A stretch of DNA of 64,000 nt, taken from the NCBI RefSeq assembly GCF_024158035.1, contig NZ_JAMZEK010000003.1, forward strand, positions 248,001 to 312,000, read 5' to 3'. Source of the stretch: Dyella lutea (GTDB lineage: Bacteria > Pseudomonadota > Gammaproteobacteria > Xanthomonadales > Rhodanobacteraceae). Each line of letters starts with the position of its first letter. Position 1 is the first letter of the stretch. The position numbers and the translations under genes are program-made. The notes beneath the pieces are model-generated. The model saw only the letters and a list, made by a program, of their open reading frames with translations, made no database searches and was not told the origin of the DNA. Shown piece by piece: positions 63,321 to 64,000 of this stretch.

Positions 63321-63400
63321 GGCGTTTTCACGCCGCACTGCTTGCACGGAGCGGCGGTTCGGAGTGCGATGGCGGCATCGTCCCGCAAGGAGTGTCATCC

Positions 63401-63766
63401 ATGATCGAGCAGATCACCGATCTTCCCGCCGGCGTGCTGGGTTTCCGCGCCCGCGGCCAGGTTACCGCCGCCGACTACGAGAACGTGCTGGTGCCGGACG
63501 TCGAAGCCGCCTTCGCGATGAACCCCAAGCTGCGCCTGATGTACCACTGCGGCGAGGACTTCACCGGCTTCGACGCCAAGGCCGCCTGGGACGATGCCAA
63601 GCTCGGCATGCGTCATTTCAGCGGCTGGGAAAAGGTCGCCCTGGTCACCGACGTGGGCTGGCTGCGGGTGGCGGCGCGGGCGATGCGCTTCGCGATTCCG
63701 GCCGAGTTCCGCCTGTTCGCCAATGCCGAGTACGCGCAGGCGCGGGACTGGCTGCTGGCGCCCTGA
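63401..63766 (+). CDS. SpoIIAA-like (STAS-superfamily) protein
   Basis: 121 residues from ATG 63401, eight bases after AAGGAG. Seen: MIEQITDLPAGVLGFRARGQVTAADYENVLVPDVEAAF, KLRLMYHCGEDFTGFDAKAAWDDAKLGMRHFSGWEKVALVTDVGWLRV, and FRLFANAEYAQARDWL. This is the full pattern of the SpoIIAA-like family (PF11964), widespread in proteobacteria. It lacks a clear phosphorylatable Ser like that of anti-sigma antagonists. Function unknown. It is transcribed with or separately from recJ, 80 bases downstream. Confidence 0.88.
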   Translation: MIEQITDLPAGVLGFRARGQVTAADYENVLVPDVEAAFAMNPKLRLMYHCGEDFTGFDAKAAWDDAKLGMRHFSGWEKVALVTDVGWLRVAARAMRFAIPAEFRLFANAEYAQARDWLLAP

Positions 63767-63792: not shown

Positions 63793-63821
63793 TTGCACCG
63801 CATCAAAAGTCGTGATCTAGT
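63793..63821 (+). promoter_or_regulatory. Predicted promoter of the leader ORF
   Basis: TTGCAC (63793-63798) and TCTAGT (63816-63821) are spaced by 17 bases. The transcription start would fall at about 63828, the A of the leader ATG. There is no ribosome-binding site, so the leader mRNA would be leaderless. Confidence 0.55.
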
Positions 63822-63827
63822 CGGGCC

Positions 63828-63956
63828 ATGACCCAGTCGTTCACCGCCGCCGTCCGTCTCGCCGATGCCCTGCATCGTGCGGCTGCGTGCGTCGCGAACG
63901 GCCTGAACAACCGCAATGGCAATAATAATCGCCTCACTGGGCGGGCCATCGCGTAG
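63828..63956 (+). CDS. Asn-rich leader peptide of a putative attenuator
   Basis: A 42-codon ORF too short for most gene finders. It begins MTQSFTAAVR and contains seven Asn codons in the last half, with the run N-x-x-NN-x-N-x-NNN (63897-63929). The final three Asn codons are AAT, uncommon in this GC-rich genome. It ends with TAG at 63954-63956. The stop codon lies just past the first arm of an inverted repeat (63935-63947). The layout (promoter, short ORF with a codon run, alternative hairpins) is that of an amino-acid operon leader, and Asn is the residue that would be sensed. The downstream gene is outside the window; I infer an asparagine-related gene such as an asparagine synthetase. No such leader is known to me. 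Confidence 0.65.
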   Translation: MTQSFTAAVRLADALHRAAACVANGLNNRNGNNNRLTGRAIA

Positions 63957-64000
63957 ACACAGTTTTCAGCTCCACATACGCGAAAAAGGCCCGCCCAGTG
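63935..64000 (+). promoter_or_regulatory. Attenuator: antiterminator arms and start of terminator
   Basis: CACTGGGCGGGCC (63935-63947) is the perfect complement of GGCCCGCCCAGTG (63988-64000), 40 bases apart. The second arm is preceded by AAAAA (63983-63987). This is how the 5' arm of an intrinsic terminator begins, so I expect a complementary arm ending in T residues just beyond the window. When the ribosome stalls at Asn codons, arm 1 stays free and pairs with arm 2 (antitermination). When it reaches the stop codon, arm 1 is covered and the terminator forms. The terminator's 3' arm is not visible. Confidence 0.6.

Follow-up and report, generated by a model that had tools for sequence, protein, structure and literature searches.

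An asparagine-rich leader ORF and candidate transcription attenuator conserved upstream of asnB in Dyella lutea and its relatives

The asnB locus at the window edge

The window, a 64,000-nucleotide stretch of the Dyella lutea genome (G000:C3:248001-312000), ended inside a hairpin that lies between a same-strand SpoIIAA-like ORF (63392-63766) and the next gene. Sequence beyond the window edge (locus L002, where window position equals L002 position plus 59999) identified this next gene as asnB, with its start at L002:4101, 100 nt past the window end. The asnB product of 558 residues matched the NCBIfam profile PRK09431 at 845 bits (cut-off 499). The first-pass annotation, made from the window alone, had inferred that an asparagine (Asn) gene lay downstream, and the asparagine synthase B gene was found in that place. 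asnB was followed (L002:6228-8982) by a class-I release factor gene with PCRF and RF-1 domains and by a class-II tRNA synthetase gene of the D/K/N type, presumably prfB and lysS.

The region upstream of asnB contained a short leader ORF, promoter elements and two overlapping hairpins (Table 1). The leader ORF translates to MTQSFTAAVRLADALHRAAACVANGLNNRNGNNNRLTGRAIA. Its seven Asn codons begin at 63897, 63906, 63909, 63915, 63921, 63924 and 63927. Both the 42-codon ORF with seven Asn codons, three of them consecutive AAT, and the 13-bp perfect inverted repeat whose first arm overlaps the ORF end had been described in the first-pass annotation, and both were present as described. When the 450 nt before asnB were dinucleotide-shuffled 3000 times, no shuffle contained an ATG-started ORF of 12-75 codons with seven Asn in 11 codons, and one reached at least five.

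Table 1. Positions of the asnB leader elements and of a second asparagine-synthase-family gene (window positions unless another locus is named).
Feature	Position	Strand	Basis or remark
-35 element TTGCAC	63793..63798	+	TTG at fixed spacing in relatives
Extended -10 element TG-A-TCTAGT	63813..63821	+	17-nt spacer from -35; TCTAGT = 63816-63821
Asn-rich leader peptide ORF, probably leaderless	63828..63956	+	42 codons plus TAG
Control region, 7 Asn codons in 11	63897..63929	+	Last three AAT AAT AAT; codon reading, shuffles
Antiterminator 5' arm (arm A) CACTGGGCGGGCC	63935..63947	+	Within ORF, 3' of Asn run
Inner antiterminator stem, 5' strand UCGCGUA	63949..63955	+	Fold; pairs with 63977-63983
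Inner antiterminator stem, 3' strand UACGCGA	63977..63983	+	Fold
Terminator 5' arm GCGAAAAAGGCCCGC	63980..63994	+	Loop 63995-63999
Antiterminator 3' arm (arm B) GGCCCGCCCAGTG	63988..64000	+	Preceded by AAAAA
Terminator 3' arm GCGGGCCTTTTTCGT	from 64000, past window edge (L002:4001-4015)	+	Then TTTT
Second asparagine-synthase-family gene	L010:1498-3447 (G000:C4, about 200118-201827)		TIGR01536

Arms A and B form the inverted repeat, and arm A would be covered by a ribosome standing at the leader stop codon. The second arm of the repeat doubles as the 5' arm of a terminator. In the window this arm had been read as terminator-like because of its A5 tract, and the sequence past the edge completed it into a strong intrinsic terminator, AAAAAGGCCCGC-CCAGT-GCGGGCCTTTTT followed by CGTTTTT, with a 15-bp stem and a dG of -26.7. 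RNA folding, proposed as a check in the first-pass annotation, gave z = -5.0 for the 186-nt segment 63815-64000 (0/200 shuffles as low) and z = -3.85 for leader plus terminator. That annotation had also said that the lack of a T-tract hairpin or of an amino-acid-related gene would speak against attenuation; both sit directly downstream.

Conservation of the leader among asnB relatives

Relatives of asnB were collected by genome search and contig listing, which sampled families and genera; the best 80 of 484 contigs included Rhodanobacter, Dyella, Frateuria, Fulvimonas and Dokdonella, plus MAGs. In total, 161 distinct asnB upstream regions were obtained. The closest asnB group (families f1, f2 and f3) accounted for 132, of which 130 were usable, the other two (L086 and L087) being shortened by contig ends. 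In the remaining 29, the asnB gene, from the same or another family, was about 60-70% identical. Upstream regions were filtered for an ORF with at least three Asn in 11 codons within 450 nt of asnB.

An Asn-rich leader ORF was found in 127/130 usable upstream regions, spanning three families of one order, so that the loss of the Asn run in related genomes, named beforehand as evidence against an attenuator, was not what the relatives presented. The same filter passed 2/29 distant upstream regions, L174 and L188, the former with a chance ORF ending about 290 nt before asnB. When alternative start codons were allowed, L187, L189 and L199 of these 29 also reached three Asn. The filter is loose, since 75/2440 shuffles reached three Asn, and the real cases went well past it: 122 upstream regions held 3-8 Asn per 11 codons, with at least five in 111/122, against a maximum of four in the 2440 shuffles. 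Only three or four Asn were present in 10/121 leaders. L174 was set aside by hand, while L178, L179, L180, L181 and L183 were added by hand, and L048, whose ATG lay too close to the 450-nt edge, did not enter the promoter and hairpin sets.

The leader was absent from three usable regions: L109, L119 and L182. For L182 (family f2, genus g93) and L119, the absence may reflect loss, rearrangement, misassembly or, in L119, which offers only 250 nt upstream, too little sequence. In L109 and L147 (Rhodanobacteraceae bacterium ZG21-1) the leader was replaced by several copies of a unit of about 50 nt containing ATGGATGGCCGGTA...CCGGAAA...GCAGGAGCA. One similar unit occurred 3' of the terminator in the window's genome, at about L002:4022-4060. 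The 14-base motif GGCCATGGATGGCC was absent from the window with up to one mismatch allowed.

Two distant upstream regions had features of their own. The short ORF of L188 (family f8), MFAIYNTINTTNNRLLRSAGSF, differs from the other leaders; it has four Asn and precedes a strong T-tract terminator, and its promoter, judged by eye, lay farther from the ATG. This ORF is perhaps an independent or far-diverged Asn attenuator. In L187 (family f10), an ORF with a GTG start and three Asn was accompanied by a terminator-like GGGGC...GCCCCGTTTTTTT immediately before asnB.

The Asn run is the conserved part of the leader peptide. Asn accounted for 18% of residues across the leaders; an adjacent Asn pair was present in 117/121 leaders and three adjacent Asn in 99/121. 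Among 98 aligned leaders, mostly from f1, columns 68, 69, 73 and 74 were 91-97% Asn, encoded by AAC as well as AAT, and the top residue of the N-terminal columns reached 14-54%, save for the start codon and some columns of Ala. Leader peptides of f2, such as MTSQRANNNRNNTSPPRVGR or MSLLRANANNANRNNLRANNRARPMRVRDQA, were otherwise dissimilar and still Asn-rich. The arm A codons near the stop were constrained at third positions (Ala was GCC in 87/92, Arg was CGG in 55/61), which fits a pairing requirement.

This pattern of conservation bears on what the peptide could do. rnTrpL and peTrpL of Sinorhizobium meliloti are reported to act in trans (PMC7298713), and the asnB leader shares their layout, in which the attenuated short RNA carries a leaderless leader ORF. 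The terminated short RNA or the peptide might thus act in trans in addition to attenuation, which we regard as unlikely for a peptide that, outside the Asn run, some Ala columns and the tail encoding the arm, is poorly conserved.

Known arrest peptides show constant residue patterns. The leader could instead sense a general translation slowdown or undergo ligand-dependent nascent-peptide arrest, with the Asn codons as an arrest requirement, and drug-sensing leader ORFs that act through ribosome stalling do exist. Against such an arrest, the downstream gene makes Asn, the number and order of Asn residues differ between families, as the f2 example above illustrates, and no other constant residue pattern was seen; it is very unlikely.

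The promoter had likewise been proposed in the first-pass annotation. Strict consensus promoter scans of the leader region returned no promoter, and the elements were recognised because they were compared across relatives, where counterparts stand at fixed spacing. The TTG started 35-37 nt before the leader ATG in 116/121 leaders and 39 nt before it in one, and was absent in four; relative to the ATG, T occurred in 65% of the 121 leaders at -13, 58% at -12 and 60% at -7, figures to be read with the start codon having been picked by a matrix built from these same sequences (seeded by the 69/122 leaders with a single possible ATG), which favours regularity. In the window, the -10 element ends 6 nt before the leader ATG, a distance so short that the leader ORF is probably leaderless, with a predicted transcription start at the A of the ATG. 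C preceded the ATG (position -1) in 97% of the 121 leaders. Shine-Dalgarno-like 4-mers were found before the leader ORF in 9/121 cases versus 117/121 before asnB.

Hairpins and simulated ribosome positions

A hairpin of at least 8 bp followed the leader stop codon in all 121 leaders with a modelled promoter, at a distance of 19-34 nt (median 24). The T-run after this hairpin was at least four in 104/121, at least three in 117/121 and shorter than three in 4/121. The duplex between the ORF tail and the terminator 5' arm had a median of -27.6 kcal/mol over the 121 leaders. It was matched by 0/100 shuffles in 80/121 and by at most five in 111/121; in the other 10/121 the duplex of arms A and B was matched by more than five of 100 shuffles (for example 55 for L149 and 40 for L143).

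Compensatory changes in the stems, which the first-pass annotation had proposed to look for, were strong in the terminator. In alignment A1 (Rhodanobacteraceae-type, 44 leaders out of the 89 collected at that stage), the terminator had 62 double-change cells where shuffles averaged 20 (0/500 shuffles) and a covariation score of 0.266 against 0.110 (0/500), with the number of pairs showing a double change (6 vs 5.5) and of further pair types (12 vs 12.2) not above shuffles. Within the same alignment the antiterminator had no covariation excess on any measure and 77.3% of its cells were paired versus 78.3% in shuffles, partly because its 8-bp core is nearly invariant; its outer pairs form in a minority. 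The inner antiterminator stem was paired in 85.9% of cells, with no double changes.

For the antiterminator, compensation appeared only as a difference between families. Leaders were split by terminator core into groups of 21 and 100, so that the arm B difference between groups arises by construction. Own-group pairings of arms A and B had medians of -27.2 and -27.9 kcal/mol, and cross-group pairings -19.2 and -19.9; no partner from the other group equalled a leader's own in 14/21 and 59/100 leaders. Arm A thus changes along with arm B between groups.

Control of asnB translation or of Rho access, in place of an intrinsic terminator, would be compatible with the Shine-Dalgarno-like motif of asnB itself, which lies well past the terminator in 117/121. 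It is highly improbable in view of stems of at least 8 bp in every one of the 121 leaders, a T-run of at least three in 117 and covarying stems. That the hairpin merely terminates the upstream gene and the Asn-rich ORF is there by chance is barely credible: the SpoIIAA-like ORF does end about 60 nt before the leader ATG, where a terminator would be ordinary, but the promoter elements keep a fixed spacing in relatives, the leader is kept in 127/130 while its flanking residues vary and shuffles fail to produce it, and just 2/29 distant upstream regions pass the filter, one with an ORF ending about 290 nt before asnB.

The pairings of the candidate attenuator were folded with a simulated ribosome, which was assumed to leave RNA available for pairing beginning 15 nt beyond the A-site codon's first base. 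When this ribosome occupied the last paired Asn codon and the transcript extended to arm B, the antiterminator formed in 121/121; when it occupied the stop codon, the terminator formed in 120/121. When the ribosome was stalled and the terminator complete, an antiterminator of at least 6 bp survived at equilibrium in only 80/121, and the model therefore needs kinetic, co-transcriptional folding. In simulations with no ribosome, the antiterminator formed in 106/121 transcripts reaching arm B, and the full-length minimum was the terminator in 91, the antiterminator in five and neither clearly in 25 of the 121.

No consistent protector hairpin was found among the 121 leaders. A hairpin before the first Asn had a mean z of -0.61 (68/121 were long enough), and the duplex of ORF start and arm A had a mean z of -0.87 (119/121 tested). 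The same folding lent no support to a conserved pause hairpin in the N-terminal half, which had also been considered.

The anatomy of the element, its conservation and its mutually exclusive pairing were established by computation; for its action, we infer the transcription start, translation, stalling and Asn response as follows. Transcription would start at or next to the leader ORF AUG, and a ribosome would translate the leader with RNA polymerase ahead. When Asn-tRNA is scarce, the ribosome would stall in the Asn run and leave arm A free to pair with arm B, blocking the terminator so that asnB is transcribed. When Asn-tRNA is plentiful, the ribosome would reach the stop codon and cover arm A; arm B would then join the downstream arm to form the T-tract terminator, ending transcription before asnB. 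We regard the element as very probably a transcription attenuator of asnB that is ribosome-mediated and would sense charged tRNA-Asn. Since no consistent protector hairpin was found, failed leader translation is predicted, with modest confidence, to leave the gene on ('default on').

Asparagine supply and relation to known attenuators

The genome encodes asnS (profile match over cut-off). A profile search found asnA absent and no gatA over cut-off (best 203 bits, cut-off 481; among the gat genes the search covered gatA). With asnS present and asnA and gatA not found, charged tRNA-Asn should depend on free Asn. A second asparagine-synthase-family gene encodes 649 residues and matched TIGR01536, a model of glutamine-hydrolysing asparagine synthase, at 498 bits (cut-off 267), which makes it a possible source of Asn besides asnB. 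No Asn-rich leader preceded this second gene. The free Asn would come from AsnB, from the second enzyme or by uptake.

In the same genome, the four fetched stretches upstream of hisG, ilvB, an aspartate kinase gene and asnS contained no leader that combined a matching run of codons with a terminator. The hisG upstream region (L224) had no His leader, and the ORF just before hisG contained YREIHERTAVSITTIGRVARYL, a stretch that we take to resemble TrpR-like repressors. Control of his by a repressor may therefore operate in the Dyella lutea genome.

Textbooks describe ribosome-mediated attenuation for a small number of amino acids. In Firmicutes, Asn genes are controlled by tRNA-Asn charging through the terminator switch of T-box riboswitches, whose RNA binds uncharged tRNA directly. 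The asnB leader differs in that its proposed sensor is a ribosome on a leader ORF. T-boxes are treated as a class in passages of PMC2965389, and none was among the Rfam scan matches. Scans with Rfam 15 gave no matching family and only sub-threshold matches at the window locus; for the leader families (Thr_leader, Leu_leader, Trp_leader), the best same-strand match was Thr_leader at 28 bits (threshold 55). Twenty further loci had no Rfam match at gathering score.

Several traits are shared with the attenuators of E. coli and Salmonella listed in PMC1183508: the leader peptide is enriched in codons for the amino acid that the controlled genes make, antiterminator and terminator exclude each other, and the ORF ends where a ribosome at the stop codon favours termination. 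Unlike these, the asnB leader is Asn-specific, its ORF is probably leaderless, arm A lies inside the ORF past the control codons, and no consistent protector hairpin was found. In trp, lost leader initiation favours termination (PMC1183508), whereas lost translation of the asnB leader is predicted to turn the gene on.

Two further systems resemble the asnB leader in part. The attenuator RNA of Sinorhizobium meliloti trpL likewise begins with the AUG of a leaderless leader ORF, and differs in its Trp specificity, its 14-residue peptide and its occurrence in Alphaproteobacteria (excerpts of PMC7298713). In Rhodobacterales, uORFC-8-2 upstream of cysS is likewise a computed candidate, with tandem Cys codons in a uORF and a terminator; there the amino acid is Cys and the controlled gene encodes a tRNA synthetase, not a biosynthetic enzyme (excerpts of PMC8632094).

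The first-pass annotation knew of no established ribosome-mediated attenuator for Asn, in agreement with the open-access literature, where none of the matches listed describes one in its title or the start of its abstract; an earlier mention is possible. Word searches of the main text of PMC2965389, PMC8632094, PMC1262725, PMC2659441 and PMC1183508 turned up no asparagine attenuator, and the asparagine-related matches in excerpts of PMC3771888, PMC5009743 and PMC5864092 concern other matters. What would be new is the specificity together with the stripped-down leaderless design, not the mechanism. On balance we lean towards the asnB leader being the first ribosome-mediated attenuator with specificity for Asn: a leaderless element of three families within one gammaproteobacterial order, lacking a protector hairpin and built as a 'default on' switch that completed leader translation turns off.

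If this holds, Asn would join the list of amino acids with ribosome-mediated attenuation, with strong comparative support, and the design would make the opposite prediction to E. coli trp upon lost leader translation. The asnB leader would then be a natural and directly testable sensor of Asn-tRNA charging.
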